Assembly (NCBI RefSeq): GCF_041320705.1
Contig: NZ_JBGGTQ010000002.1
Coordinates: 310,001 to 374,000, forward strand
Reading direction: 5' to 3'
DNA length: 64,000 bases
Origin: Kineococcus mangrovi
GTDB taxonomy: Bacteria > Actinomycetota > Actinomycetes > Actinomycetales > Kineococcaceae
Shown here: piece after piece, positions 29,746 to 43,364 of the stretch
How positions within the stretch are numbered: position 1 is the first letter of the stretch
How the letters are laid out: each line of letters starts with the position of its first letter
Position numbers and translations under genes: made by a program
The notes under the pieces: model-generated
Told to the model about the DNA's origin: nothing
Seen by the model: only the letters and a program-made list of their open reading frames with translations
The model's database searches: none

Positions 29746-30867
29746 TCAGGTGAGGACGCGCAGGAGGGCGAGGTCGGCGTCGAGGACGACGGCGCCACCG
29801 CGGGCGCCGGGTTCGAGGTGGCCGACGTCGGTGCGGCCGAGCAGCCGCGCCGGGGTCGCGGTGACGGCGTCGAGGGCGTCGGCGAACGCCAGCCCCGCCT
29901 CGGTCACGGCGAAGCGCAGCGCGCGGTCGAGGGTCAGGGTGCTGCCGGCGATGGACCCGCCCCCGGCGAGCCTGGCCACCCCGTCGGTGACGTCGACGTC
30001 GAGGTCGCCGAGGCGGTAGCGGCCGTCGGCCGCCCCCGTCGCGGCCATGGCGTCGGTGACCAGGGCGACGCGACCCCGGCCGGCGCGGTGGGCGGCGAGG
30101 GCGACGACGAGCGGGTGCAGGTGCACGCCGTCGGCGATGAGCTCGACGGTGACCCGGTCGTCGTCCAGGAGCGCGGGCACGGCCCCCGGTTCGCGGTGGT
30201 GCACCGGCGCCATGGCGTTGAACAGGTGCGTGGCCCACCGGGCCCCGGCGTCGACGGCGCGCCGGGCCGTGTCGGCGTCGGCACCCGTGTGGCCGATGGA
30301 GGCGGTGGCCCCGGCGGCCGCGACCTGCTGCACCGCAGCCAGTCCCCCGGGCAGCTCGGGGGCGATGGTCACCATCCGCACGAGGCCGGTGGACAGCAGC
30401 CGGTCGAGGTCGGCGGGGTCGGGATCGCGCAGCAGGCCCGGGGCGTGCGCGCCGCGGTGGTCCGGGCTCAGCCAGGGCCCTTCGAGGTGGACGCCGGCCA
30501 GCTCGCCGTCGGCGACGAGACCGGCGAGGGCGTCGAGGGTGGCGGCGAGCTCGTCGAGCGGGCTGGTCACGAGGCTCGCGACGAGCGTCGTCGTGCCGTG
30601 CGCGCGGTGGGTGGCGGCGACGGTGCGGGCCGCCGCGACGGCCTCGTCCCCGCGTCCGCCGAAGCTGGCGCCACCGCCGCCGTGGCAGTGCACGTCGACG
30701 AACCCGGGGACGACGTGCGCGCCCCGGACGGTCTCGTGGGCGGCGCCGGGACCGGTGGGCGCGGGCCCCGTCCCCACCTGCACGACCTCGCGGCCGTCCA
30801 GCAACGCCCAGCCGTCGGTCAGCACCCGCGCACCGGTGTGGACGGTTCCGCGCGCCAGGACGGTCAT
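29746..30867 (-). CDS. nagA: N-acetylglucosamine-6-phosphate deacetylase
   Basis: A 373-residue amidohydrolase-fold enzyme: VPGFVDVHCHGGGGASF (metal site), HLEGPWLSPDHRGAHAPG, SIGHTGADADTARRAVDAG, THLFNAMAPVHHREPG, ELIADGVHLHP and LVTDAMAATG with catalytic Asp. All are standard NagA blocks. It removes acetate from GlcNAc-6-P, giving glucosamine-6-P. ATG 30867 overlaps the upstream SIS gene stop (ATGA), so substrate hand-off to that enzyme is likely. Confidence 0.95.
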   Translation of the reverse strand: MTVLARGTVHTGARVLTDGWALLDGREVVQVGTGPAPTGPGAAHETVRGAHVVPGFVDVHCHGGGGASFGGRGDEAVAAARTVAATHRAHGTTTLVASLVTSPLDELAATLDALAGLVADGELAGVHLEGPWLSPDHRGAHAPGLLRDPDPADLDRLLSTGLVRMVTIAPELPGGLAAVQQVAAAGATASIGHTGADADTARRAVDAGARWATHLFNAMAPVHHREPGAVPALLDDDRVTVELIADGVHLHPLVVALAAHRAGRGRVALVTDAMAATGAADGRYRLGDLDVDVTDGVARLAGGGSIAGSTLTLDRALRFAVTEAGLAFADALDAVTATPARLLGRTDVGHLEPGARGGAVVLDADLALLRVLT

Positions 30868-31904
30868 CGCGTCTCGGTGACCTTGCGCAGGCCGCGGGGC
30901 GCGTCCGGGTCCAGACCGCGGGCGACGGCCATCTCCAGGGCCAGGCGCTGCAGCGGCACGATCTGCACGACGGGTGCGAGCTCCTCGGGCATCCCGCCGG
31001 GCAGGGCGAGCCGGACGGTGGCGTCGGGGGCCAGACCCGCGGGGGCGACGGCGCACACGTCGGCGCCCCGGTCGCGCAACGCGTCGAGGACGGGCGCCAT
31101 CGCGTCGCCGCCGCGGCCCTGCGGCACGACGGCGACGACGGGGCGGTCGGCGTCGACCATGGCGAGCGGGCCGTGCATGAGGTCGGCGGCCGAGAACGCC
31201 TGGGCCGACAGGTAGGACGTCTCCATGAGCTTCAGCGCGGCCTCGCGCGCCGTCGGGTAGGAGTACCCGCGGGCGGTGAGGACGAGCCGGTCGACGAACC
31301 GGTAGCGCGCGGCGACGTCGGGGACGTCGGTGGCGGACACGGCTTGCTCCAGGAACCCGGGCAGGGCCTGCGCGGGGGCGAGGTCACCGCCGCGCCAGGT
31401 CGTCGCGAGCAGCCACAGGGTCAGGAGCTGGGCGGTGTAGCTCTTGGTCGCGGCGACGGCCAGCTCGGGGCCGGCGTGCACGTCGAGGTGGTGCTCGGCG
31501 GCCTGCGCGAGCGCGGAGCCGGGGTTGTTGGTGACGGCGAGCGTGGTGGCGCCGGCGCGGCGGGCCGCGGCCGTCGACTCGACGAGGTCGGGCGAGCCGC
31601 CGGACTGGCTGATGCTGATCCACAGCACGCCCCGCAGGTCGGGCGTCGCCTCGTAGACGGTGAGCGTCGAGGTGGACGAGAGCCCGCAGGGCAGGCCGAG
31701 ACCGATCTCGAGGAGGTACTTGGCGTAGAGCGCGGCGTGGTCGCTCGTGCCGCGGGCGGTCAGGAGCACCGCGCGCGGGGCCGCGTCGCGCAGGAGGCCG
31801 GCGACGCGGGCGACCTCCCCGCCCGCGGCGGTCAGGACCCGGTCGGCGACGGCGGGCTGCTCGGCGATCTCGGAACGGACGAGGTGACCACGGGCGGGGC
31901 TCAC
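30864..31904 (-). CDS. double-SIS-domain aminosugar deaminase/isomerase (GlmS-C-like, NagB-II type)
   Basis: A 346-residue protein made of two SIS sugar-isomerase domains (LTARGTSDHAALYAKYLLE; later LVLTARGYSYPTAREAALKL) without the glutaminase domain of GlmS. SISQSGGSPDLVE is the phosphosugar loop. Such proteins deaminate or isomerise glucosamine-6-P. Coupled to nagA, it most likely gives fructose-6-P plus ammonia. I chose GTG 31904, which has TGGAG upstream. An in-frame GTG at 31952 would add 16 residues but start inside the operator. Confidence 0.88.
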   Translation of the reverse strand: MSPARGHLVRSEIAEQPAVADRVLTAAGGEVARVAGLLRDAAPRAVLLTARGTSDHAALYAKYLLEIGLGLPCGLSSTSTLTVYEATPDLRGVLWISISQSGGSPDLVESTAAARRAGATTLAVTNNPGSALAQAAEHHLDVHAGPELAVAATKSYTAQLLTLWLLATTWRGGDLAPAQALPGFLEQAVSATDVPDVAARYRFVDRLVLTARGYSYPTAREAALKLMETSYLSAQAFSAADLMHGPLAMVDADRPVVAVVPQGRGGDAMAPVLDALRDRGADVCAVAPAGLAPDATVRLALPGGMPEELAPVVQIVPLQRLALEMAVARGLDPDAPRGLRKVTETR

Positions 31905-31951
31905 GGGGGCTCCAGACGGGGTGACGGGGACAGTCCTGAAGGAAGTTGACA

Positions 31952-31969
31952 CAACCGTAGCGCCGGTTG
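31952..31969. promoter_or_regulatory. inverted-repeat operator in the SIS/RpiR intergenic region
   Basis: CAACCG-N6-CGGTTG, perfect 6-bp arms, flanked by TTGACA (31946-31951). It lies midway between the divergent aminosugar operon and the RpiR gene, where a local autoregulator would bind. Confidence 0.5.
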
Positions 31970-32001
31970 AAAGTTCTCACCAGACCCCTGGACGGAGACC
32001 C

Positions 32002-32892
32002 GTGACCGCACCCGACCCCACCGCCCTGCGCGCGCACCTGCTCGCCGCCGTCCCCGCGGCGACGGCCTCCGGCGCCCGGGTGCTGACCGCGCTGCTGGAG
32101 GACCCGGCCGCGGCCGCCCAGCTCACCGTCACCGACCTCGCCGCGCGCACCGGGACGAGCGAGGCGACCGTCGTGCGCACGGCCCGGTCCCTGGGGTTCG
32201 CCGGGTACCCGCAGCTGCGGCTGGCCCTGGCCGCCTCCGGCACCGCCCCCGCACCGGCCGCGCTGCTCACCGAGTCCCCCGAGGACGCCCCCGACCTCGC
32301 CGGCGTCGTCGCCAGCCTGGCCGCCCTGGAGAGCGAGGCGCTGCACGCCACCGCCCGCACCCTCGACCTCGCCGCGCTGGGGGCGGCCGCCGACGCCGTC
32401 CACGGCGCGCGGGCCGTGGACTGCTGGGGCATCGGCGCCTCGGGGGTGCTGGCCGCCGACTTCGACCACAAGGCCGTCCGCGCCGGGCTGCTCACCCGGT
32501 TGCGGACGGAGGGGCACGCGGCGCTCGTGAGCTCGGAGACCCTCGGCCCGGACGACACCGCTGTCGTCGTCAGCCACTCCGGGCGCACCCCCGACGTCGT
32601 CGCCGCGGCCGGGCGCGCGCGGGACCGGGGGGCGAAGGTCGTCGCCGTGACGAGCTCGGCGGGCTCACCGCTGGCGGGGGCCGCCGACCACGTGCTCGTC
32701 GCCACCGGGCGCGAGACCGCCTACCGCGCGGGAGCGATGGCCAGCCGGGCCGCGACGGCGCTCGTCCTGGACTGCCTGTACGTCGCCGTCGTGCAGCGCC
32801 TCGGCGACCGGGCCGGGGACGCGTTGCAGCGCACCTACCGCGCGGTGGAGGACCCCCGCCCCGTCCAGGGCCGCCGAGCGCACCGGCGGTAG
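32002..32892 (+). CDS. MurR/RpiR-family transcriptional regulator
   Basis: A 296-residue regulator: N-terminal HTH_6 domain (LTVTDLAARTGTSEATVVRT, then ARSLGFAGYPQLRLAL) and C-terminal SIS domain (WGIGASGVLAADF; VVVSHSGRTPDVV) that senses a phosphosugar. Divergent from the SIS/nagA operon with an inverted repeat between, so it probably controls aminosugar catabolism in response to GlcN-6-P or GlcNAc-6-P. GTG 32002 follows GGAG. It ends 6 bp from the convergent LacI gene. Confidence 0.92.
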   Translation: MTAPDPTALRAHLLAAVPAATASGARVLTALLEDPAAAAQLTVTDLAARTGTSEATVVRTARSLGFAGYPQLRLALAASGTAPAPAALLTESPEDAPDLAGVVASLAALESEALHATARTLDLAALGAAADAVHGARAVDCWGIGASGVLAADFDHKAVRAGLLTRLRTEGHAALVSSETLGPDDTAVVVSHSGRTPDVVAAAGRARDRGAKVVAVTSSAGSPLAGAADHVLVATGRETAYRAGAMASRAATALVLDCLYVAVVQRLGDRAGDALQRTYRAVEDPRPVQGRRAHRR

Positions 32893-32898
32893 GCCCGG

Positions 32899-33972
32899 TC
32901 AGCCGGGTCGTGGGGGGAGGTCCCGGTCGTTCCCACGCGGCGTCGTGGAATCGCGCTGGACGACCCGGCACCCCAGCTCGACGGTCCCCGCCCCGGGGTT
33001 CCCCGCGATCGCCGCGGTCAAGCTCTGCGCCGCGCGCCGGCCCAGCGCCTCCAGCTGCATGTCCACGGTGCTCAGCGCGGGACGCGACTCGCCGGCGATG
33101 ACCTCCCAGTTGTCGAAGCCGATCACCTGGACGTCCTCCGGGACCCGCAACCCCTCCTCCTGCAGGACGTCGAGCACCCCCCGGGCGATCTGGTCGGACC
33201 CGGCGAACACCGCGTCCAGCTCCCGGGTCTGCTCCAGCAGCAGTCTCGTCGCCCGTCGCCCCCAGCTCTCGGTCCACGACCCGAACCAGACCCCGTCCCC
33301 GACCAGTTCCAGACCTGCCTCGGCCAGCCGGTCGCGGGCGCCCCGGGCGCGGTCGTGGGAGGCGCCGTACCCCGGGTCACCGGTGATGTGGGCGATGCGG
33401 GTGCGGCCGCAGGCCAGCAGGTGGTCCACGGCCAGGCGTCCACCGGCGACGTTGTCGCAGACGATGGACAGGTCCGCCGCGTCCTGGGACGGGGAGTAGG
33501 CGTAGACGACCGGCACGGGCAGGTTCGGGCCCAGCGACCGGCGCGAGTCCGGCCGCGCGCCCACGACGATGAGGCCGTCGACCTGCCGCGACAGCAGGGC
33601 CCGCAGGTGGTGCTGCTCGCGGATGGCGTCGCCGCGGGCGTCGCACAGGAACAACGAGGTCCGATCGGCGCCGAAGGCGTCCTCGGCCCCCATGAGGATC
33701 GGCAGCGAGAAGCGCCCCTCCAGGTCGGAGGTCAGCAGGCCGACGGTCCCCGACCGCCCAGCGGACAGACCGCGGGCCATGGCGTTCGGGGAGAACGACA
33801 ACCGCTCGGCCGCCGCCAGCACCCGCGCCCGGGTGCCGGGGTTGACGTCCGGCCGCCCGTTCAGGGCTTTCGAGGCCGTCGCCGTGGAGACCTCGGCCAG
33901 GCGCGCGACGTCTCGCAGGGTCACCGCACGTGACGGCTGGTCACGGCCCGCCGACACCCTCACCTCGTCCAC
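32899..33972 (-). CDS. LacI-family transcriptional regulator
   Basis: A 357-residue LacI/GalR protein: HTH VTLRDVARLAEVSTATASKA with hinge helix ARGLSAGRSGTVGLL, then a periplasmic-binding-protein-like sugar domain ending near GIDNWEVI-type sequence (VQVIGFDNWEVIAGESRPAL). Divergent from the ABC importer/GH127 operon; palindromes lie in the spacer, so it likely represses that operon until its sugar is present. GTG 33972 is 6 nt after TACAAA, suggesting a leaderless transcript. Two further in-frame GTGs lie 3 and 5 codons downstream. Confidence 0.92.
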   Translation of the reverse strand: MDEVRVSAGRDQPSRAVTLRDVARLAEVSTATASKALNGRPDVNPGTRARVLAAAERLSFSPNAMARGLSAGRSGTVGLLTSDLEGRFSLPILMGAEDAFGADRTSLFLCDARGDAIREQHHLRALLSRQVDGLIVVGARPDSRRSLGPNLPVPVVYAYSPSQDAADLSIVCDNVAGGRLAVDHLLACGRTRIAHITGDPGYGASHDRARGARDRLAEAGLELVGDGVWFGSWTESWGRRATRLLLEQTRELDAVFAGSDQIARGVLDVLQEEGLRVPEDVQVIGFDNWEVIAGESRPALSTVDMQLEALGRRAAQSLTAAIAGNPGAGTVELGCRVVQRDSTTPRGNDRDLPPRPG

Positions 33973-34090: not shown

Positions 34091-34104
34091 CGCTTTCGAA
34101 AGCG
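34091..34104. promoter_or_regulatory. LacI-type operator CGCTTTCGAAAGCG
   Basis: A perfect 14-bp palindrome with a central CG, the classic form of LacI/GalR operators. It lies 20 nt after TTGACA (34066-34071) in the LacI/ABC importer intergenic region, where it would block the importer promoter. Confidence 0.7.
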
Positions 34105-34193: not shown

Positions 34194-34208
34194 CGAAACA
34201 CCGTTTCG
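34194..34208. promoter_or_regulatory. second inverted repeat upstream of the sugar importer
   Basis: CGAAAC-ACC-GTTTCG, perfect 6-bp arms, 50 bp before the binding-protein start. It shares the CGAAA/TTTCG core of the 34091 palindrome and may be a secondary operator. Confidence 0.4.
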
Positions 34209-34257: not shown

Positions 34258-35580
34258 ATGAGAGGCACCAAGCGCGGACCCCTGCGGGGGACGCTCGCCG
34301 CCGTGGCCGCGGCCACCCTGGTCGTGGGGCTCGCCGCCTGCGGCAGCGGGAGCGGCGGCGCAGGTGGCGGCGACCAGACCGCGTCCATCAGCGGCCCCTC
34401 CGGCAGCGACGACGGTGCGGACCTGACCCTGTGGACCCGCGCCCCGCTGGAGCTGCAGGCCAAAGCCCTGGTCGAGGCCTACAACGCCTCCCACGAGAAC
34501 CACGTCGAACTGACGGTCGTCCCCAACGACGACTACGTCACGAAGGTGGGGGCGGCGGCCGGCAGCGGGGGCCTGCCGGACCTGTTCGCCGCCGACATCG
34601 TGTACACGCCGAACTGGACCTCCCAGGGCCTGTTCAAGGACATCACCTCGAACATCGACCAGCTCCCGTCGGCGGGCAGCATCAACGAGGGTCACCTCAA
34701 GGCGGGCACCTACGAGGGCAAGGAGTACGTCCTGCCCTTCGTCGAGGACCTCTCGGTCATGATGTGGAACAAGGAGCTCTACCGCGAAGCGGGTCTGGAC
34801 CCGGACAAGGGGCCCACCACGCTGGCGGAGTTCAAGGAGCAGGCCGAAGCCGTCCAGAAGCTGGGCAAACCCGACACCTACGGCACCTACTTCGGCGGGA
34901 ACTGCGGTGGCTGCACCGTGTTCACCTGGTTCCCGATGATCTGGGCCAGCGGTCAGGACGTCCTGAACGACGACGGCACCCAGTCGCTGCTGAACAGCGA
35001 CACCGCCAAGCAGGTCTACTCGACCTGGCACGACCTGCAGGCCGCGGGCGCCATCGCCCCCGGATCGCGCGACGAGACCGGGGCGACGTGGACGGGCGCC
35101 TTCCAGAAGGGCCAGATCGGGGTCATGCCCTACCCCGCCACCCTGCTGTCGACCGTCAGCAAGACCGTCGACGTCGGCGTCGCGCCCATCCCCGGGGTCG
35201 AGGGCGGCGGCTCCACCTTCGTCGGGGGTGACGGGATCGGGATCTCCAAGGACTCCGAGAAGGCCGACCAGGCCTGGAACTTCCTGTCCTGGCTGATGTC
35301 GGACGATGCCCAGGTCGGCGTCCTGGCAGCCAACGGCACCACCCCCTCGCGCACCGACCTGGCCCAGAACAAGTACACCGCCGACGACCCCCGACAGGCC
35401 ACCATCAACGAGATCGCCGGTGCGGCCGACAGCAAGACCCCGTTCGCGCCGAACTTCCAGACGGCCTTCAACGCCACCGGCAGCCCGTGGATCACCCTGG
35501 TGCGCGACCAGGTCTACAGCGACGACCCCGGTGACCTCGACGCCCAGAACGAGGCGATCACGGCCGCCCTGGCCGACTGA
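34258..35580 (+). CDS. sugar ABC transporter substrate-binding lipoprotein
   Basis: A 440-residue lipoprotein with basic start, hydrophobic helix and lipobox Cys28 (GLAACGSGSGG). Family-1 solute-binding protein: LTLWTRAPLELQAKALVEAY, then NKELYREAGLDPDKGPTTLA and GIGISKDSEKADQAWNFLSW. It captures an oligosaccharide outside the cell for the two permeases downstream. ATG 34258 follows GAGGAGGAG. No ATPase is encoded nearby, so a shared MsiK-like ATPase elsewhere is expected (established for actinobacterial sugar importers). Confidence 0.93.
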   Translation: MRGTKRGPLRGTLAAVAAATLVVGLAACGSGSGGAGGGDQTASISGPSGSDDGADLTLWTRAPLELQAKALVEAYNASHENHVELTVVPNDDYVTKVGAAAGSGGLPDLFAADIVYTPNWTSQGLFKDITSNIDQLPSAGSINEGHLKAGTYEGKEYVLPFVEDLSVMMWNKELYREAGLDPDKGPTTLAEFKEQAEAVQKLGKPDTYGTYFGGNCGGCTVFTWFPMIWASGQDVLNDDGTQSLLNSDTAKQVYSTWHDLQAAGAIAPGSRDETGATWTGAFQKGQIGVMPYPATLLSTVSKTVDVGVAPIPGVEGGGSTFVGGDGIGISKDSEKADQAWNFLSWLMSDDAQVGVLAANGTTPSRTDLAQNKYTADDPRQATINEIAGAADSKTPFAPNFQTAFNATGSPWITLVRDQVYSDDPGDLDAQNEAITAALAD

Positions 35581-35706: not shown

Positions 35707-36639
35707 GTGGCAGTCAGCAGCCCGTCCTCCACCACCGTCCCCGCAGCCCGCACCTCCCGTCCGCAGCGCAAGGGGAAGTCCCTGACGGGTTGGGCCTACG
35801 CCGCACCCACCGCGTTGTTCGTCGGGCTGTTCTTCCTCGTCCCCACCCTGCTGGTCCTGCAGATGTCCGTCTCGGACTGGGGTCTGTTCACGGGCAACCG
35901 GGGTCTGAACGCACCGGAGAACTTCACCGCGGCGGTGCAGGCCCCGCTGTTCTGGCCGGCGGTCCGGTTCACGCTGCTCTACACGGTGATCACCACCGTC
36001 ATCCTGCTGGCACTGGCCCTGGGGCTGGCGATGCTGGTGCAGGAGTCCACCCGGTGGAGCGCGGTGCTGCGCACGTCCTTCCTGCTCCCGAGCGCACTGG
36101 GGCTGGCGTCGGCGTCGCTGCTCTTCTACGCGCTGTACTCCCCGCAGGCCTCCCCCCTGCCGGGCCTGCTGTCGCTCGTGGGCATCGACATCGGGCGGAT
36201 CTCCTTCCTGGGGACCCCGGGAGCAGCTCTCACCTCGACCGTGGTGCTCATCGTCTGGCGGTTCGCCGGCTTCTACATGCTGCTGCTGCTGGTCGGCCTG
36301 CAGGGGATCCCGGGCGAGGTCTACGAGGCCGCCCGCATGGACGGTGCGAAACCGCTGCAGATCTTCCGGCTCATCACCGTCCCGCTGCTGAGGTCATCCC
36401 TCGCGCTGTGCACCATCCTGTGCGTCACCGGCTCGCTGCTGGCCTTCGACCAGTTCTACATCCTGACCAAGGGGGGCCCGGACAACAGCACGGTGACCAT
36501 CGTCCAGCTCGTCTACAACGCGGCCTTCCAGGGGCAGAACGACCTCGGACGCGCCGCCGCCCTGTCCATCATCGTCCTGGCCGCACTCGTCGTCCTGAAC
36601 GTCCTGCAGTTCCGCGGTCTGCGCGGCAAGGAGAACTGA
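35707..36639 (+). CDS. sugar ABC transporter permease (MalF/UgpA type)
   Basis: A 310-residue permease: WAYAAPTALFVGLFFLVPTL as first helix, about six helices, EAA loop EVYEAARMDGAKPLQIFRLI and DQFYILTKGGPDNSTVTIVQ, characteristic of the MalF/UgpA group. It pairs with the next gene. GTG 35707 follows GAGAGAGCC. The first 28 residues are Ser/Pro-rich and cytosolic. Confidence 0.93.
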   Translation: MAVSSPSSTTVPAARTSRPQRKGKSLTGWAYAAPTALFVGLFFLVPTLLVLQMSVSDWGLFTGNRGLNAPENFTAAVQAPLFWPAVRFTLLYTVITTVILLALALGLAMLVQESTRWSAVLRTSFLLPSALGLASASLLFYALYSPQASPLPGLLSLVGIDIGRISFLGTPGAALTSTVVLIVWRFAGFYMLLLLVGLQGIPGEVYEAARMDGAKPLQIFRLITVPLLRSSLALCTILCVTGSLLAFDQFYILTKGGPDNSTVTIVQLVYNAAFQGQNDLGRAAALSIIVLAALVVLNVLQFRGLRGKEN

Positions 36640-36641
36640 CC

Positions 36642-37535
36642 ATGCCTCAGAACAGCGCTCCCGCCACACCGATCGCCGAACTCGGCGTGCCGGCCCGGAC
36701 GGACCTGCGTCCCTCGGGCCGCCGCACCGCCGCGGTGATGCCGCGGTACGTCCTCACCGGCGGGCTCGCCCTCGTGTTCCTCGCGCCCCTGCTGTGGGCG
36801 GCGGTCGCCTCGGTCAGCCCGCAGGGCGGGACGGCCCAGGCCGTCGGGTGGGGCTTCGGCAACTACGAGACGCTGGCGAACTACCAGGCGGGTCTGCTCC
36901 GGTACCTGTGGAACTCCTCGTACCTGTCGGTCCTCACCGTGGTCCTCACCCTCGTCGTCTCCACCCTGGGCGGTTACGCCTTCGCCGTCTACCAGTTCCC
37001 CGGCAAGAACGTCCTGTTCCTGGCCGTGCTGGCCATCCTCATGGTCCCGTACGCCACCCTGCTCATCCCCCTGTACGTCCTGCTGAACCAGATCGGCCTG
37101 CAGAACAGCCTGGTCGGCACCTCCCTGGTCATGACCATGTTCCAGCTCCCGTTCGCCACGTTCATGATGCGCATCGCCTTCGAGGCGGTGCCCCGCGAAC
37201 TCCTCGAATCCGCTCTCGTGGACGGGTGCAACTCCTTCACGGCGCTGGTGCGGGTGCTGCTGCCGGCGGTCAAACCGGGGTTGATCACGGTGGGGCTGTT
37301 CGCCTTCCTCGCCGCCTGGAACGACTTCATCACCCCCCTCGTCCTCATCAGCGACTCCGACAAGCTCACGTTGCCCCTGGCCGTGGCGAACCTGCGCAGC
37401 CAGGTGATGGGCGTCGTCGACTACGGCGCCACCGAGGCCGGTGTCGTCGTCCTGGCCCTGCCCTGCGTCCTGCTCTTCCTGCTGCTCCAGCGCCACTACG
37501 TCGCCGGCTTCATGTCCGGAGCCCTCAAGGGGTGA
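36642..37535 (+). CDS. sugar ABC transporter permease (MalG/UgpE type)
   Basis: A 297-residue permease: YVLTGGLALVFLAPLLWAAV as first helix, MVPYATLLIPLYVLLNQIGL, and EAA loop ELLESALVDGCNSFTALVRV. The MalG-type partner of the preceding permease. ATG 36642 is two bases after the previous stop, so the two are coupled. The frame is open far upstream, but that part is shadow of the first permease. Confidence 0.93.
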   Translation: MPQNSAPATPIAELGVPARTDLRPSGRRTAAVMPRYVLTGGLALVFLAPLLWAAVASVSPQGGTAQAVGWGFGNYETLANYQAGLLRYLWNSSYLSVLTVVLTLVVSTLGGYAFAVYQFPGKNVLFLAVLAILMVPYATLLIPLYVLLNQIGLQNSLVGTSLVMTMFQLPFATFMMRIAFEAVPRELLESALVDGCNSFTALVRVLLPAVKPGLITVGLFAFLAAWNDFITPLVLISDSDKLTLPLAVANLRSQVMGVVDYGATEAGVVVLALPCVLLFLLLQRHYVAGFMSGALKG

Positions 37536-37599: not shown

Positions 37600-39555
37600 A
37601 TGACCACCACCTCCCCCGTCCCGGCCGCCGCCGACGCACCCGCGCAGCCCGCGGTGACCGTGACGTCCCGCCCCCTGCCCGTGACGGCCGTCCGCCTCGA
37701 CGACCCGTTCTGGTCCCCCCGCGTCGAGGTGGTGCGCCGACGGACGATCCCGTTCCAGCGCCGGCAGATCGACCGCGTGGGCCACCTGCGGGCCCTCGCC
37801 GGGGCACCCGACCCCGGGGACGCGCCCCCGCACGTGTTCTGGGACAGCGACGTCGCGAAGTGGATCGAGGCCGCCAGCAACAGCCTCGCCGTCACGCCCG
37901 ACGCCCGGCTCGAACGCGACGTCGACGAGGCCGTCGAGGTGCTGGCACGGGCCCAGCACCCCGACGGGTACCTCAACACGTACTTCACCGCCGCGGCGCC
38001 GGGCGAGCGGTTCACCGACCTGCGCGACGCCCACGAGCTGTACTGCGCCGGACACCTCATCGAGGCGGGGGTGGCTCACCACGCCGCGACGGGGAAGACG
38101 AGCCTGCTGGACGTCGTCCGCCGCTACGCCGACCTCATCGGGGAGGTCTTCGGCCCGGGGCCGGGGCAGCTGCGGGGGTACGACGGGCACGAGGAGGTCG
38201 AACTCGCCCTCGTCAAGCTCGCACGGGCCACCGGAGAGGACCGCTACCTCCGGCTGGCGAGCTACTTCGTGGACGAACGCGGCCGCGAGCCGTACTTCTT
38301 CGACGCCGAGACCGCGCGCCGGGGGACGGACGGGTGGTTCGGCGAGCACTTCTCCGGTCTGGACCACCCCGGCCGCACCCGCGAGTACCTGCAGGCCCAC
38401 GCTCCCGTGCGCGAGCAGCACGAGGCGGTGGGGCACGCGGTCCGCGCCACGTACCTGTACAGCGCGATGGCCGACCTCGCGGCCGACACCGGGGACGGCA
38501 CGCTGCTGGCCGCCTGCCGCCGCCTCTGGGACCACCTGGCCGCGACCCGCACCTACGTGACGGGCGGCCTGGGCAGTTCCCGCGTGAACGAGGGCTTCAC
38601 CCGCGACTTCGACCTGCCGGCCGAGGACGCCTACGCCGAGACGTGCGCGGCGATCGGGCTGGTCATGTGGAGCCAGCGGATGCTCACCGTGGACCGCGAC
38701 CGGCGCTACGCGGACACGATGGAGCGCGCGCTCTACAACGCCGTCCTGGCCGGGTTGTCCGCCGACGGGGAGCACTTCTTCTACGACAACCCGCTCGCCA
38801 GCCGGGGTGGGGTGCAGCGGCACGAGTGGTTCGAGGTGGCGTGCTGCCCCCCGAACATCGCCCGGCTCCTGACGTCCCTGGGCGGCTACGCCTTCGCCCA
38901 GGGCCGCGACGAGCTCGTCGTCCACCTGGCGCTGGGAGCCGCGGTCCGCTTCGAGACCAGCGCTGGTCCGGCGACCGTCGACGTGAGCACCGACGCCCCC
39001 TGGGGTGGGCGCACCCAGCTGCGGGTGACCGACTCGCCCGGCGGTGAGTTCACGCTCTCGCTGCGGGTCCCCGGCTGGGCCGAGGGCGGGCAGCTCACGG
39101 TCGACGGGCAGCGGTTCGACGTCGCGGACCTCCTCGGCCCGGACGGCTACGTGTCCCTCACCCGCGCCTGGCAGGTCGGCGCGGAGGTCGTCCTCGACCT
39201 GGACGTCGCGGTGCGCCGGTGGTGGGCCGACCCGAGGGTGACCGGGGAGGCCCAGCACGTGGCGGTGACCCGCGGCCCGTTGGTCTACGCGGCCGAGGAG
39301 GTCGACAACGGCCCCTCGCTCGTCGACCTGCGGCTCGACCGGTCGGCGCCGGCGCGCGTGGTCCAGGTCCCCGGGCTCCCCGACGTCCTCGGGGTGCGGT
39401 TGTCCGGTGGACGCGTCGAGCACGCCGGCGCCGGCCTGTACCGCACCGAACCTCCCCGGCGCGTCCCCGCCGACCTGCTGCTCGTGCCCTACTACGCGTG
39501 GGCCAACCGCGGCGCGGGCGAGATGCGGGTCTGGCTGGGCGACTCCGAGGACTGA
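37600..39555 (+). CDS. GH127-family beta-L-arabinofuranosidase-like glycoside hydrolase
   Basis: A 651-residue cytosolic enzyme with the GH127 blocks. Zinc/cysteine nucleophile site VACCPPN has Cys415 and Cys416; YAETC gives Glu347 and Cys349. Glu331 in NEGFTRDFDLP is at the spacing (16 residues before Glu347) of the acid/base in characterised HypBA1-type enzymes. (Alpha/alpha)6 barrel first, beta-sandwiches at the C-terminus. It should cleave terminal beta-L-arabinofuranose from imported oligosaccharides. No signal peptide fits an intracellular role after ABC uptake. GAGG precedes ATG 37600. Confidence 0.92.
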   Translation: MTTTSPVPAAADAPAQPAVTVTSRPLPVTAVRLDDPFWSPRVEVVRRRTIPFQRRQIDRVGHLRALAGAPDPGDAPPHVFWDSDVAKWIEAASNSLAVTPDARLERDVDEAVEVLARAQHPDGYLNTYFTAAAPGERFTDLRDAHELYCAGHLIEAGVAHHAATGKTSLLDVVRRYADLIGEVFGPGPGQLRGYDGHEEVELALVKLARATGEDRYLRLASYFVDERGREPYFFDAETARRGTDGWFGEHFSGLDHPGRTREYLQAHAPVREQHEAVGHAVRATYLYSAMADLAADTGDGTLLAACRRLWDHLAATRTYVTGGLGSSRVNEGFTRDFDLPAEDAYAETCAAIGLVMWSQRMLTVDRDRRYADTMERALYNAVLAGLSADGEHFFYDNPLASRGGVQRHEWFEVACCPPNIARLLTSLGGYAFAQGRDELVVHLALGAAVRFETSAGPATVDVSTDAPWGGRTQLRVTDSPGGEFTLSLRVPGWAEGGQLTVDGQRFDVADLLGPDGYVSLTRAWQVGAEVVLDLDVAVRRWWADPRVTGEAQHVAVTRGPLVYAAEEVDNGPSLVDLRLDRSAPARVVQVPGLPDVLGVRLSGGRVEHAGAGLYRTEPPRRVPADLLLVPYYAWANRGAGEMRVWLGDSED

Positions 39556-39635
39556 GGCCGCCACCGACGACGGCCCGCAGGACCGGCCCGCCCGGGCGGT
39601 CCGACCCCGTTCGACCACGAGAGAGAAGACGTTCG

Positions 39636-42600
39636 ATGACGAACCCCGCAGAACCCCTGTCCCCGGCGACCGGCCGGGGCGGTGCGCCGCTCCCGTCGGA
39701 TCCGGGGGGATCCACCTCCCGCCGCTCGGTCCTGGCGACCATGCTGGCCGCCAGCGCAGCCGCGGCCCTGGGCCCGGGGGTGCTGGCCCCCTCGCGGGCG
39801 GCGGCGGCCACCCGCCCCCTGCAGTCCGCACGCTTCGACGTGGCCGTCGACGAGGCCACCGGCGGGGTGTTCCGGTTGGTGGACCCGCAGGACCCCTACC
39901 GGACCAACTACCTGCTGAACCCCGACAACCGCCCGAACTTCGTCGTCGACGACTCGCGCTGGCTCGGGGACATGGTCTTCAGCGTCAAGGGCGCCGGGGA
40001 CTCCGCACCGCGGCCGGCGGTCACCGGTCTGTCCGACGACGTGCGGACCGTCACCTCCGACGCGGACGGCGTGACGGTGCGGTACGCGGGGACGGCGGCG
40101 AACCGCTTCGGGATCAGGGGTTTCACCCTGACCCAGCAGTACGCGCTGACCGGACCCGACCGCAGCCGGCTGAGCTGGACCTTCACGGTGACGAACACGT
40201 CCGGCGCACCGCTGGAGTTCCTCGACGTCGGCCTGCCGCTGCCCATGGACTCCTGGTGGGCCAGCGACCAGACCGCGATCTACGAGCAGAACGTCAGCAG
40301 GCACTCGTTCGTGGCCGAGGACGGGTCCTACCTCTACTGGCAGCGCCCGAACGGCGAGGCCCCCTACCTGGTGATGGTCCCGCAGGAGGGAACCAGGCTG
40401 GAGTTCAAGAACAAGGCCCGCTTCAAGGAGGGGCCCTTCGCGGAGAAGGACCCGGCGTGGGAGGGTCTCGTCGAGTACTACGTCCACTCCAAGGACATCC
40501 AGGTGGCCCGCGCGGCCTCCACCGCGGCGTACCTGCCGGCGACCTCGCTCGTCCTGGCCCCCGGGGCCTCCAAGACCTACGGGTTCACGTTCCGGTGGGC
40601 CGGCAGCTACCACGACCTGCGTGACGTCCTGTTCGACGCCGGCGTCGTCGACGTGGTGTCCCTGCCCGGCATGGTCGTCCCCACCGACCTCACCGCGACG
40701 CTGGCCGTCCGGGCCGCCGGGGGCATCACCTCCGTCGTGGGCGAGGCCGGCAAGGGCATCGCCGTCCGGGCGCAGGGCACGCGCAACGGGTACTCCCTCT
40801 ACCAGCTCACGATGCCGACCCTGGGGGCGAACGACGTCACGGTCACCTACGCCGGGAACCGGACCTCCGTCCTGCAGTACTGGGCGATCGAACCGGTCGA
40901 GAAGGTGATCGCGGCGCGCACCGCGTTCCTGGCGGGCAAGCAGCAGGCCCGGACCGCCCGCGGGTACGACGGCGCCTACCTGCAGTGGGACATGTCGCGC
41001 CAGCGGCTCATCACCTGGGACGACTACCCCGGCGGTGGCTGGAAGCAGTGGATGGCCGGTGGGTCCGACGACCTCGGCCTGGGCCCGGCCGCGTTCCTCG
41101 CCCGCAAGAACGTCTCCGACCCGGTACCGTCGGAGATCGCCTCGGTGGACCGGTTCATCCAGCGGTTCCTGCACGGGTACCTGCAGGCCCGCACCGAGAA
41201 CGGCCAGCGCACCTACCAGGTCTACCGGTGGTTCGACGGCCGGGACGGCACCCCCCAGGACCAGGGCGTGTGGCGGGCGTACAACTACGCCCACATCGCC
41301 AACACGTACTTCCACATGTACGAGGTGGCGACCACCTGGCCCGACCTGAAGACCGCGTTCGGCGCGCTGGACTACCTCGACATGGCCTTCCGCACCTGGG
41401 AGGCGATGTACACGAAGATCCCGCTGCCCACCCCCATCGGGGACGCCGCCCACGACCTCGGCCTCATGGGCGAGGGGACCTACCCCGAGCTCCTCGCCGC
41501 TCTGCGGTTCGAGGGGCGCACGGCGCAGGCAGCGACCCTGCAGGGCTTCCTCGACGCGAAGGCGAAGCGGCTGTTCGCCCAGAAGTACCCCTTCGCCTCC
41601 GAGGCCAGCATCGACACCACCGGTTTCGAGGCGAACTACACCCTGGCCAAGGCGTACGGCAACACAGAACTGGCGCGCAAGGTGCAGCGCGCCTCCCTGG
41701 CGTGCCGGGGCCTGCAACCGCTGTGGTACTTCTACGGGTCCGACAACCGCCACATGGGCGAGTCGTGGTGGAACCTCGGGTACGAGACGCAGATCGGCGC
41801 CTGGCAGCAGCAGGACTACCTGAGGAACTACGCCGCACCGGACGACCCGGACTTCGACGACATGGTCCGGTCGACCTACGGCGCCTACCTGGCGGGGTGG
41901 GCCAACGTGAACTCCGGCCAGATCAGCCCCGCCGAGGCGAACCGCGGGGCGGCCTCGTGGCAGTTCCAGAGCGAGAAGGGGCGGGCGAACTACGACTGGA
42001 TCCCCATCCTGGACGGCTGGTGGGCCTGGTCCGGGGAGGCGGACCTCGGGTTCTGGGGTGGGGTCCGCACCGCGTCGACGACGGTCGTCGAGGACCGTGC
42101 GGTGGGGACGTACGCGTACGGCGGCGAGGTGAGGACGACGGGCGCGGGGGGCGAGTACGCGGTCGTGCCCCGCGACGGGGTCCGGCAGCGTCTCATCGTG
42201 CACCCCGCCCGGGGGCTGACCGTCGAGGTCAGCCGGGCCAAGTACTCCCGGGCGACGGTCTCGCGGGCCGCGGACCGGGTCGGCCTGACCGTGCAGGGCG
42301 TGGGCGGGGCGGCGAGCGCGCCGCGCATCGGCCTGGCCAACCTCGCCGCTGGGACCTACGACGTCTCCGTGGGCGGGTCCGCGGTGTCGGCGCAGCTCAC
42401 CAGCGACGGCCGGGGCGCGGCGGTGGCGCTGGGCTCCACCGCGTCCGACGCCGCGGTGCTCGTCTCCCGGACCGGGAACGCTCCGGGCGAGCGGGAGGTC
42501 GGGCGTGACGGTGTCGTCTCGGCCACGTACACGGCGTCGTGGAACCGGGTGGGGGCGCTCAACGACGGGCTCGTGGCCGCGGGCGGTGCGACCGACCAGA

Positions 42601-43364
42601 CGGCGCTGTGGGGCACGTACCGGCGCACCGGCCGGTCGGCGTCGGACACGTTGACCTGCACCTGGGGCGAGCCCGTCACGGTCGCCTCCTCCACCCTGGT
42701 CTTCTGGGCCGACGCGGCGCGGGGTTCCGGTGACGGGGTGGCACTGCCCGACTCCTGGCGGCTGGAGTTCCGCGACGCCTCGGGCTCCTGGCAGCCCGTC
42801 CAGCCGACCGGGGCGGCCGCCTACCCCGTCAACCCCGCCGGGGCCCGGAGCACGGTGACGTTCTCCCCGGTCTCGACCACGGCGCTGCGGGCGGTGCTCA
42901 CGGCCAGTGCCGCCGCCGGCGGTTCCCGTTCGGCCGTGGCCGTCTCGGAGTGGTCGGTGTTCACGCCGGCGCCGGCGCAGCCCGTGCCCCCGACGCAGAC
43001 CCGGCTCTACCAGCAGGTGAACTCCGGGAACCCCGTCCGCGCCAACGTCGGTCAGCCCGTGCAGGTGGTCGTGCAGTTCGGCAACCGCGGAGCGGGCGTG
43101 GTGGACGGGAACACCCTGGTGGAGACCTGCCGGCAGACGAACGCCGGCGCCGCAGGTGCCACGACGTTCTCCCTGGCTCCCGCGGAGGGGACGCAGCAGC
43201 AGATCGCCCGGCCCTACCCCGCCGGGCAGAACGCGAACCTGACGCTGGTCGGGACCCCGACCTCGCCGGGGCGCGCGGTCTTCGAGTGCACCTTGAGCGG
43301 CCAGGACCAGGCGGGCGCACCGGTCAGCGCCACGACCACGGTCACGGTCGACGTGGTGCGCTGA
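39636..43364 (+). CDS. large Tat-exported glycan-active-like protein (DUF5695-like), activity unknown
   Basis: A 1242-residue protein with a twin-arginine signal (STSRRSVLATML, residues 28-39, then Ala-rich helix). About 60-340 is beta-sandwich-like (RFGIRGFTLTQQYALTGPDR). About 430-790 looks like an alpha/alpha barrel, rich in Trp, Tyr and acidic motifs (VWRAYNYAHIANTYFHMYEV; HMGESWWNLGYETQIGAW). About 960-1110 is discoidin/F5-8C-like (CTWGEPVTVASSTLVFWADA). The last 110 residues are Ig/CARDB-like. This plan resembles secreted glycoside hydrolases or lyases, and I recall the DUF5695 family as the nearest match. It is in the GH127/importer operon, so it may release the oligosaccharide that is imported. 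Active-site residues cannot be assigned. Confidence 0.75.
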   Translation: MTNPAEPLSPATGRGGAPLPSDPGGSTSRRSVLATMLAASAAAALGPGVLAPSRAAAATRPLQSARFDVAVDEATGGVFRLVDPQDPYRTNYLLNPDNRPNFVVDDSRWLGDMVFSVKGAGDSAPRPAVTGLSDDVRTVTSDADGVTVRYAGTAANRFGIRGFTLTQQYALTGPDRSRLSWTFTVTNTSGAPLEFLDVGLPLPMDSWWASDQTAIYEQNVSRHSFVAEDGSYLYWQRPNGEAPYLVMVPQEGTRLEFKNKARFKEGPFAEKDPAWEGLVEYYVHSKDIQVARAASTAAYLPATSLVLAPGASKTYGFTFRWAGSYHDLRDVLFDAGVVDVVSLPGMVVPTDLTATLAVRAAGGITSVVGEAGKGIAVRAQGTRNGYSLYQLTMPTLGANDVTVTYAGNRTSVLQYWAIEPVEKVIAARTAFLAGKQQARTARGYDGAYLQWDMSRQRLITWDDYPGGGWKQWMAGGSDDLGLGPAAFLARKNVSDPVPSEIASVDRFIQRFLHGYLQARTENGQRTYQVYRWFDGRDGTPQDQGVWRAYNYAHIANTYFHMYEVATTWPDLKTAFGALDYLDMAFRTWEAMYTKIPLPTPIGDAAHDLGLMGEGTYPELLAALRFEGRTAQAATLQGFLDAKAKRLFAQKYPFASEASIDTTGFEANYTLAKAYGNTELARKVQRASLACRGLQPLWYFYGSDNRHMGESWWNLGYETQIGAWQQQDYLRNYAAPDDPDFDDMVRSTYGAYLAGWANVNSGQISPAEANRGAASWQFQSEKGRANYDWIPILDGWWAWSGEADLGFWGGVRTASTTVVEDRAVGTYAYGGEVRTTGAGGEYAVVPRDGVRQRLIVHPARGLTVEVSRAKYSRATVSRAADRVGLTVQGVGGAASAPRIGLANLAAGTYDVSVGGSAVSAQLTSDGRGAAVALGSTASDAAVLVSRTGNAPGEREVGRDGVVSATYTASWNRVGALNDGLVAAGGATDQTALWGTYRRTGRSASDTLTCTWGEPVTVASSTLVFWADAARGSGDGVALPDSWRLEFRDASGSWQPVQPTGAAAYPVNPAGARSTVTFSPVSTTALRAVLTASAAAGGSRSAVAVSEWSVFTPAPAQPVPPTQTRLYQQVNSGNPVRANVGQPVQVVVQFGNRGAGVVDGNTLVETCRQTNAGAAGATTFSLAPAEGTQQQIARPYPAGQNANLTLVGTPTSPGRAVFECTLSGQDQAGAPVSATTTVTVDVVR

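Follow-up and report, generated by a model that had tools for sequence, protein, structure and literature searches.

A secreted DUF5695 protein encoded beside a GH127 beta-L-arabinofuranosidase: a possible PL27-fold enzyme for hydroxyproline-linked arabinosides

What does a large exported protein do when its gene follows directly on those of a sugar importer and an arabinose-removing enzyme? The question is raised by the window, a stretch of 64,000 nucleotides of Kineococcus mangrovi DNA, in which a protein of the Pfam family DUF5695 (PF18951) is encoded behind a GH127 beta-L-arabinofuranosidase (Table 1). The answer argued for here is that DUF5695 appears to help strip arabinose sugars from the hydroxyproline (Hyp) glycoproteins of the plant cell wall – a class that includes extensin, an abundant, little-studied wall glycoprotein.

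The extents of both genes given in the initial annotation proved exact from ATG to stop codon, and the Tat export that it proposed is consistent with an N-terminal twin-arginine stretch (STSRRSVLATMLAASAAAALG) in the translation, which makes the DUF5695 protein a putative secreted one. Its match to PF18951 (E 1.6e-70, 238.7 bits against a gathering cut-off of 25.2) covers profile positions 90-809 of 857 and places it in the family; an NCBIfam search returned no name for it, and two scans of viral contigs gave no confirmed relatives. A search of published papers returned no functional study of DUF5695 – the mention in the available part of PMC10845976 is unrelated – and the family appears to be unstudied within those papers, an assignment in CAZy or elsewhere being possible.

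The neighbouring GH127 (Pfam 343 bits against a cut-off of 24.9) matches a Geobacillus GH127 (PDB 4qjy, presumably Ara127N; 610 bits) over nearly its full length, and its residues E331, E347, C349, C415 and C416 are invariant in all five aligned GH127s; their catalytic and zinc-site roles, and their spacing (Glu, Glu, Cys, Cys, Cys), we take to be those of HypBA1. According to the available part of PMC10850190, GH127 enzymes combine a cysteine nucleophile with Zn coordination. As no signal peptide was seen in its translation, the window's enzyme is probably cytoplasmic. The GH127 that occurs throughout the window's family of genomes is a different one, its best copies being ~42-48% identical to the window copy. 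Further upstream, the same strand encodes a solute-binding protein and two permeases, with gaps of 2 bp between the permeases, 64 bp from permease to GH127 and 80 bp from GH127 to DUF5695, and each of the three terminator-like sites found between 33900 and 44300 belongs to the minus strand. Judged from this layout, co-transcription of importer, GH127 and DUF5695, as asserted at the outset, is plausible. Within this operon, an export signal was seen in no enzyme other than the DUF5695 protein. GH43 was not seen in the gene run, and a hydroxyproline epimerase was not found in the window genome, which would therefore at best use the sugar and not Hyp.

Table 1. Features of the gene run, in positions of the window
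Feature	Position	Strand	Basis
LacI-family regulator, divergent from operon	32899..33972	-	Pfam; start codon chosen by eye
Perfect 14-bp palindrome CGCTTTCGAAAGCG, operator-like	34091..34104	.	Read from sequence
Inverted repeat CGAAAC-N3-GTTTCG, operator-like	34194..34208	.	Read from sequence
ABC sugar importer solute-binding protein (PF01547)	34258..35580	+	Pfam; start codon chosen by eye
ABC sugar importer permease 1 (PF00528)	35707..36639	+	Pfam
ABC sugar importer permease 2 (PF00528)	36642..37535	+	PF00528
GH127 beta-L-arabinofuranosidase, 651 aa	37600..39555	+	Pfam; 4qjy 610 bits
DUF5695 protein, 1242 aa, Tat-type secreted	39636..43364	+	Translation; PF18951 238.7 bits, residues 162-889
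N-terminal region, twin-arginine signal (STSRRSVLATMLAASAAAALG)	39636..39806	+	Read from translation
DUF5695 core, aa 59-905, PL27 fold	39810..42350	+	Model; Foldseek 5nok E 7.7e-28; VIA 5no8 Z 30.0
D478, 49/49 invariant, Asp in PL27 too	41067..41069	+	Alignment
W546-R547-x-x-x-Y551-x-H553 motif, start of barrel helix	41271..41294	+	Model, alignment
S655-E656-x-x-x-D660 motif, loop before barrel helix, 49/49 invariant	41598..41615	+	Model, alignments
Accessory module, aa ~967-1122	42534..43001	+	Shared with GH121-like and GH43 proteins of related loci

This arrangement recalls the hyp cluster of Bifidobacterium longum, which – as described in the available part of PMC7263609 – comprises GH43 HypAA, GH121 HypBA2, GH127 HypBA1 and an ABC importer for Hyp-linked arabinosides. 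Cluster and window have in common one binding protein with two permeases, an intracellular GH127 and a large extracellular enzyme, in the same order of importer, GH127 and large secreted enzyme (PMC7263609, same part); the last of these is GH121 in B. longum and DUF5695 in the window. A GH121 search with a query from Isoptericola had hits in that genome and in Modestobacter and gave no match in the window genome, which thus has importer and GH127 with no GH121 match. A LacI regulator presumably belongs to the B. longum cluster as well. In its place in the run, DUF5695 would stand where GH121 HypBA2 stands in B. longum, with a PL27-type fold and no detectable sequence relation: GH121 6m5a, present in the PDB file searched, was matched neither by the single sequence (E<=1) nor by a 50-row profile (E<=10), and hhalign gave probabilities of 0.3 against a thin GH121 side of two sequences and 1.65 against a GH127 side of five, so that a direct sequence relation to either family was not found.

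Structure prediction and fold comparison, a check that the initial annotation had proposed, yielded the PL27 fold as the clear best match. A single-sequence prediction was set aside (pLDDT 34.7); the model of the core used here (pLDDT 82.1, pTM 0.87) predicts a beta-sandwich, then an (alpha/alpha)6 barrel and then a small C-terminal beta part, so that sandwich and barrel are both present as claimed, and mutarotase-like sandwiches match model residues 1-266. Among the matches listed, the best is PL27 BACCELL_00875, an L-rhamnose-alpha-1,4-D-glucuronate lyase (PDB 5no8, 5nok): VIA gave two PL27 entries Z scores of 30.0 (5no8; rmsd 4.1, 631 residues aligned, PL27 chain of 669) and 25.5, against 19.3 for the next family, and Foldseek gave E 7.7e-28 for 5nok against 8.6e-9 for the next family. 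GH121 does not figure among the 50 VIA matches listed, which carries no weight either way. The family profile of 50 rows found PL27 in the PDB (E 3e-17), where single-sequence phmmer had no real match (one row, E 0.94), and two PL27 stretches scored separately against PF18951 reached 22.0 and 16.2 bits (cut-off 25.2). PL27 and DUF5695 would thus share the fold of the whole core, beta-sandwich and (alpha/alpha)6 barrel alike; this does not amount to close similarity to a characterised family, since identity is about 17% and the relation is visible only by profile or fold. On the best reading of sequence and model, DUF5695 is probably an uncharacterised, distant sister family of PL27. Of the original suggestion of a secreted carbohydrate enzyme of a possibly new family, the secreted type, the unstudied family and the link to GH127 and importer stand, while relatives are known, in DUF5695 and, distantly, in PL27.

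The C-terminal part departs from what had been proposed: for an F5/8C-like domain there was no Pfam match at E<=1, and what residues ~967-1122 do resemble is an accessory stretch in a GH2 beta-galactosidase (PDB 8q2h, E 9.4e-9). A GH121-like protein of Modestobacter (L087) shares this module at 48% identity, and GH43 proteins of related loci carry a similar one.

The relation to PL27 bears on substrate and on chemistry. Gum arabic, on which PL27 acts, is a plant Hyp-rich glycoprotein (PMC8377490, available part), and the fold, as that of a plant-glycoprotein enzyme, was counted for a role in Hyp-glycoprotein use; counted against the arabinoside reading was that the one relative by fold that has been characterised, a lyase, acts on Rha-GlcA caps. 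Because of this relation, the chemistry of DUF5695 could be lyase-like: a PL27-like enzyme would act by beta-elimination next to a uronic acid of a glycoprotein glycan cap (e.g. Rha-alpha1,4-GlcA of AGP), clearing the way for GH127 and others. The fold and profile scores speak for such a lyase, as does the alignment of PL27 Asp370, Asp390, Arg447, Tyr451 and Arg593 with invariant DUF5695 residues; in the primary PL27 paper (J Biol Chem 2017), a tyrosine is reportedly proposed as the base. The conserved carboxylates expected in the barrel region were found, D452, D478, E656 and D660 being invariant in 49/49 sequences of an alignment derived from 88 aligned rows: rows with 82% identity or more to a retained row, together with a short clade II fragment (L012), were omitted to give 50 rows, and L005 was additionally omitted to give 49. 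In the model, D478, E656 and D660 sit in loops that precede barrel helices, and D452 is part of a short strand; several stretches bearing invariant carboxylates have low or modest pLDDT. D452, D478, R547 and Y551 are no mark of a hydrolase, because the PL27 lyase has them too. PL27 differs at two invariant positions, with Trp453 in place of H553 – in a motif whose R and Y it shares – and Gln in one alignment or Glu in the other in place of D660; the two alignments disagree on whether the PL27 Glu pairs with E656. These differences at H553 and D660 count against the lyase, as do the substrate context, arabinosylated Hyp, in which a uronic acid would not be expected, and the occurrence of a GH88-type partner for unsaturated uronate in 1/83 loci, the very one that supplied the query (a single GH88 query, which may miss others); we judge a lyase improbable.

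As a glycoside hydrolase, DUF5695 would bind chains of arabinosylated Hyp within the pocket that its (alpha/alpha)6 barrel forms, with candidate catalytic acids among D478, E656 and D660 and W546, R547, Y551 and H553 as helpers. It would free a beta-L-arabinofuranosyl oligosaccharide, e.g. Araf-beta1,2-Araf, from Hyp, which the ABC importer would take up and cytoplasmic GH127 would convert to L-arabinose. To this specific claim, a hydrolase releasing a beta-L-Araf oligosaccharide, we give an even chance.

Substrate evidence comes from the neighbourhoods of DUF5695 relatives, sampled as the best 80 of 271 candidates, dominated by Sphingomonadales and counted over 83 loci (79 scanned loci of up to 22.6 kb, some shortened by contig ends, and four plasmid loci of up to 32 kb). 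In this best-80-of-271 sample, the stretch retrieved around DUF5695 contains GH127 in 64/83 loci: 55/64 of those labelled Sphingomonas, Novosphingobium, Sphingobium or (two) only Proteobacteria, and 9/19 of the remainder, these nine spanning five phyla. Peptidase-type genes (DUF885 53/83, S9/DPP IV-type 45/83, M24 prolidase-type 25/83) and hydroxyproline catabolism genes (DHDPS-type 21/83, hydroxyproline epimerase 13/83) recur in the same sample, and DUF885, S9, M24, DHDPS-type and epimerase genes were each found in 0/8 other GH127 loci, controls of 20 kb from seven of the same sphingomonad genomes – a comparison that is close rather than exact because stretch lengths differ. In 11/83 of the sampled loci, GH127, GH43, peptidase and Hyp genes were all absent. 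One Limisphaera locus holds in a single run beside DUF5695 a 4-hydroxyproline epimerase (413 bits, slightly below the NCBIfam cut-off of 442), an FAD D-amino acid dehydrogenase-type gene, a DHDPS-type gene, an aldehyde dehydrogenase and GH127. Peptidase-type and hydroxyproline genes fit the breakdown of a proline-rich protein and of hydroxyproline, and so support Hyp-glycoprotein use. The initial suggestion that the protein may release arabinofuranosyl oligosaccharides is sharpened by these neighbours, which favour an extensin-type substrate over arabinan, arabinogalactan or D-arabinan, and tempered by the possibly lyase-like chemistry.

GH43 and GH27 serve less well as marks of extensin: at 29/83 and 8/83 in the best-80-of-271 sample and 3/8 and 1/8 in controls, they do not separate the loci from the controls. 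GH27 would fit the Ser-alpha-Gal of extensin (PMC8012813, available part), and the GH43 tested is closest in the PDB to xylosidase/arabinofuranosidases and is no more than a candidate for the HypAA type.

In Isoptericola, a GH121 (E 1.1e-109 to 6m5a) adjoins DUF5695, and the Modestobacter contig with DUF5695 has a GH121-like gene ~15 kb away, which weakens the case for an exact GH121 replacement. Because of this co-occurrence, DUF5695 is not simply a GH121 substitute and may cut another bond. It would then be a glycosidase for the core Araf-beta-Hyp, the terminal alpha-1,3-Araf or the Ser-alpha-galactose bond of the same glycoprotein and act as a complement to GH121 or GH43. That account, which we hold to be unlikely, draws further on the sampled GH43 count and on three Acidobacteria loci (L010-L012) where two DUF5695 clades stand side by side, suggesting that more than one bond is cut; it is countered by the export signal seen in DUF5695 alone among the enzymes of the window operon and by GH43 and GH27, which could handle alpha bonds where loci have them.

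The neighbours also vary with the branch of the family, in a tree of 33 rows (<75% identity, without the L012 clade II fragment) whose bootstrap is unsettled and in which one clade I row (L010) has a very long branch. Peptidase and Hyp genes accompany clade II loci or one Acidobacteria locus (L011); the scan of the window-type loci L006-L009 found neither, with GH127 in 4/4 and an importer in 3/4, L007 being a short contig stretch. The Hyp link of other phyla may then not hold for the actinobacterial clade, the substrate being another beta-L-arabinofuranoside polymer (a pectic side chain, RG-II or type III arabinogalactan), as might also be read from two sphingomonad loci (L005, L082) that adjoin RG-I genes. 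We consider this very doubtful: Isoptericola and Modestobacter, of the window's own clade, carry GH121 or a GH121-like gene, and characterised GH121 members act on Ara3-Hyp (PMC7263609 and PMC6085000, available parts).

Taken by itself, a role of DUF5695 in Hyp-glycoprotein use is likely. The odds are even that DUF5695 is the enzyme that frees glycans outside the cell in a system feeding on arabinosylated, extensin-type Hyp-rich glycoproteins. More tentatively, and somewhat short of even, DUF5695 may be a new CAZyme family that uses the PL27 lyase fold to hydrolyse Hyp-linked beta-L-arabinofuranosides and is unrelated in sequence to GH121 and GH127. The family would then form the core of loci for extensin use, with arabinan removal, prolyl-type peptidases and hydroxyproline catabolism, in plant-associated Sphingomonadales, Acidobacteriota and Verrucomicrobiota; Actinomycetota and gut Bacillota would have a reduced version for the sugar alone.

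If this is true, substrate, fold and candidate catalytic residues could be assigned to a Pfam family of unknown function, and hydrolases would join a fold family of lyases, with a bearing on how the two kinds of enzyme interconvert; an enzyme tool for deglycosylating extensins and arabinosylated peptide hormones would also come within reach. It would further suggest that common leaf and soil bacteria use extensin as a source of carbon and nitrogen through recognisable gene loci.

Exactly where the initial annotation had placed them lie a GH127 gene and the gene for a 1242-residue protein, residues 162–889 of which match the Pfam family DUF5695 (PF18951). On the same strand, 5′ of the GH127 gene, we find the genes of one solute-binding protein and of two permeases; the gene of a LacI regulator has the opposite orientation. 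No NCBIfam model matched the window protein, and a PDB search with it as a single sequence gave no match (sole row at E 0.94).

Features in and around the window operon (window positions)
Feature	Position	Remark
Amidohydrolase, SIS-domain protein and RpiR-type regulator	29746-32892	Adjoins the operon; by resemblance, a putative amino-sugar cluster
Operator-like palindrome	34091-34104	Between LacI and operon; read from sequence
Operator-like palindrome	34194-34208	Between LacI and operon; read from sequence
GH127 gene	37600-39555	
DUF5695 protein gene (1242 aa)	39636-43364	Twin-arginine signal at start

Since the GH127 protein has no visible signal peptide and retains E331, E347, C349, C415 and C416, it most probably functions as a cytoplasmic enzyme; judged by sequence, the DUF5695 protein is the sole enzyme in the run bearing an export signal. 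The most economical reading of the operon is a route in which the exported DUF5695 enzyme would free a β-L-Araf oligosaccharide, the importer would take it up and GH127 would split it inside the cell.

A profile of 50 DUF5695 members found only one protein in the PDB at E ≤ 10 – BACCELL_00875 (5no8/5nok; E 3e-17), the L-rhamnose-α-1,4-D-glucuronate lyase of family PL27. With an AlphaFold2 model of aa 59–905 of the window protein, built on a 49-row alignment (pLDDT 82.1, pTM 0.87), Foldseek put 5nok top at 7.7e-28 (next family 8.6e-9), and VIA-align gave 5no8 a Z of 30.0 across 631 residues (next family 19.3). PF18951 scored 22.0 and 16.2 bits (cut-off 25.2) against two PL27 stretches taken separately; the whole protein might pass. 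The most fitting description of DUF5695 is that of a PL27 sister family.

Invariant across 49 aligned members are, among others, D452, D478, W546, R547, Y551, H553, S655, E656, D660 and R705. Judged by the secondary structure of the model, loops preceding barrel helices hold D478, E656, D660 and R705, one helix opens with W546–H553, and D452 sits in a short strand. Model confidence around this candidate site is uneven, with means between 43 and 91 for blocks of ten residues. PL27 shares Asp, Asp, Arg, Tyr and Arg at positions 452, 478, 547, 551 and 705, but has Trp in place of H553 and Gln or Glu, depending on the alignment, in place of D660; one alignment pairs a PL27 Glu with E656 and the other does not. 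Because PL27 keeps both Asp residues and the alignments disagree at E656 and D660, the carboxylates by themselves do not separate hydrolase from lyase. We regard a hydrolase activity of DUF5695 as an evenly balanced proposition, the counterpoint being that its only characterised fold relative has lyase chemistry.

Among 12 genomes of its family and 396 drawn from its phylum, only the window genome carries DUF5695; GH127 matches are present in all 12 family genomes. The best copies in the other family genomes, like the second GH127 of the window genome itself, are only ~42–48% identical to the operon GH127, which scores 610 bits against Geobacillus 4qjy and 400 against the best same-family copy – values from two different programs, comparable only roughly. 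By this distribution and the higher score with the Geobacillus enzyme, the entire run appears to have been acquired.

A scan of genome contigs gave 271 candidate DUF5695 relatives, of which the best 80, forming 79 loci, were kept together with four plasmid loci. The DUF5695 tree has two clades (support 100/100; bootstrap not settled): clade I, with the window protein, Modestobacter (64% identity to the window protein), Isoptericola, Blautia, a Lachnospiraceae MAG (two copies) and Acidobacteria, and clade II, with Sphingomonadales, Acidobacteria, Limisphaera and others. Acidobacterial clade I genes occur in three loci (L010–L012; copies partial in L012), each time adjacent to a clade II gene, an arrangement suggestive of two separate activities directed at a single substrate. 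The MAG (locus L007:922-13192) encodes two tandem DUF5695 proteins of 2423 and 1511 aa, both with Ig-like repeats and one with FIVAR, and the Blautia protein (L008:8708-13852) combines FIVAR with dockerin domains; these features suggest anchoring of a wall or cellulosome type. Two loci labelled Bacillus sp. 2B10 (L067) and Microvirga (L045) carry DUF5695 of sphingomonad type, by tree grouping and by similar score, respectively; mislabelling or contamination of the contigs may explain this.

Across the resulting 83 loci (best 80 of 271 plus four plasmid loci), tblastn at E ≤ 1e-20 found GH127 in 64, Ldh-type oxidoreductase in 55, DUF885 in 53, S9/DPP IV-type in 45, GH43 in 29, M24 (creatinase/prolidase) in 25, DHDPS-type in 21, GH2 in 19, DUF6055 in 17, hydroxyproline epimerase in 13, amino-acid permease in 9, GH27 in 8, POT peptide transporter in 7, rhamnogalacturonan lyase, GH28 and the window-type binding protein in 2 each, and GH88 and GH121 in 1 each. 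GH127 occurs in 55 of 64 loci whose label is Sphingomonas, Novosphingobium, Sphingobium or, for two, just Proteobacteria. Among the other 19, which include one Sphingopyxis and two doubtful labels, it occurs in 9, belonging to Actinomycetota, Bacillota, Acidobacteriota, Verrucomicrobiota and Pseudomonadota. At least one hydroxyproline (Hyp) gene, epimerase or DHDPS-type, is present in 22 of the 83 and at least one of three peptidase types in 63; in 11, no GH127, peptidase, Hyp gene or GH43 was seen.

For a matched comparison we took eight further GH127 loci, drawn from 7 of these sphingomonad genomes. None of the eight contained DUF885, Ldh, S9, DHDPS, epimerase or M24, but GH43 was present in 3/8 and GH27 in 1/8, so that neither of the last two discriminates DUF5695 loci. 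With 1 to 7 GH127 matches per genome in 15 genomes of 3.2–6.5 Mb (picked for DUF5695–GH127 linkage and usable for GH127 copy number only), chance proximity should not exceed a few per cent. In Limisphaera, a run of 4-hydroxyproline epimerase, FAD D-amino acid dehydrogenase-type, DHDPS-type, aldehyde dehydrogenase and GH127 genes, which we take to be the trans-4-hydroxyproline degradation pathway, faces DUF5695 and an S9-type match.

DUF885 proteins (e.g. L038:4145-5929, L005:6852-8594) may be peptidases for Hyp-containing peptides, and DUF6055 (e.g. L050:12349-14247), seen in 0/8 controls, is a candidate further part of a Hyp-glycoprotein pathway. A protein of ~800 aa (L063:4582-6990, with a Tat-like start, L058:1784-4222 and relatives) occurs in 8 of the same 83 best-scoring and plasmid loci, 5 of them acidobacterial; it reached no Pfam cut-off, gave a faint GH127 middle-domain signal and, with no GH127 seen in three of the eight loci (L063, L070, L076), is perhaps a divergent GH127-like enzyme.

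According to PMC8012813, extensins carry Ser-α-Gal and Hyp with one to three β-1,2-linked Araf, possibly extended by α-linked Araf; the known bacterial route, described in PMC6085000 and PMC7263609, removes α-1,3-Araf by GH43, β-Ara2 by GH121 and the rest by GH127. DUF5695 loci bring together GH127, prolyl-type peptidases, Hyp catabolism and often GH43, a set that would fit extensin as the substrate. That DUF5695 simply replaces GH121 is countered by their co-occurrence in clade I genomes: in Isoptericola, GH121 (E 1.1e-109 to 6m5a), GH43, GH127 and an importer adjoin clade I DUF5695, and in Modestobacter a GH121-like gene, with an in-frame module matching the window protein's C-terminus (48% identity), lies ~15 kb away on the same contig.

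Hyp and peptidase genes turned up with clade II loci and the mixed acidobacterial locus L011, and were not seen in the window-type loci L006–L009. The window genome gave no GH121 match in searches for which Isoptericola and Modestobacter were the positive controls, nor did it yield a hydroxyproline epimerase; its use of the glycoprotein would then be confined to the sugar, as in the B. longum system. A role for DUF5695 in Hyp-glycoprotein use is, in our estimation, quite probable. The system is real, coherent and under-studied: Hyp-linked arabinoside use is of a known kind, and at its centre is an uncharacterised sister family of PL27.
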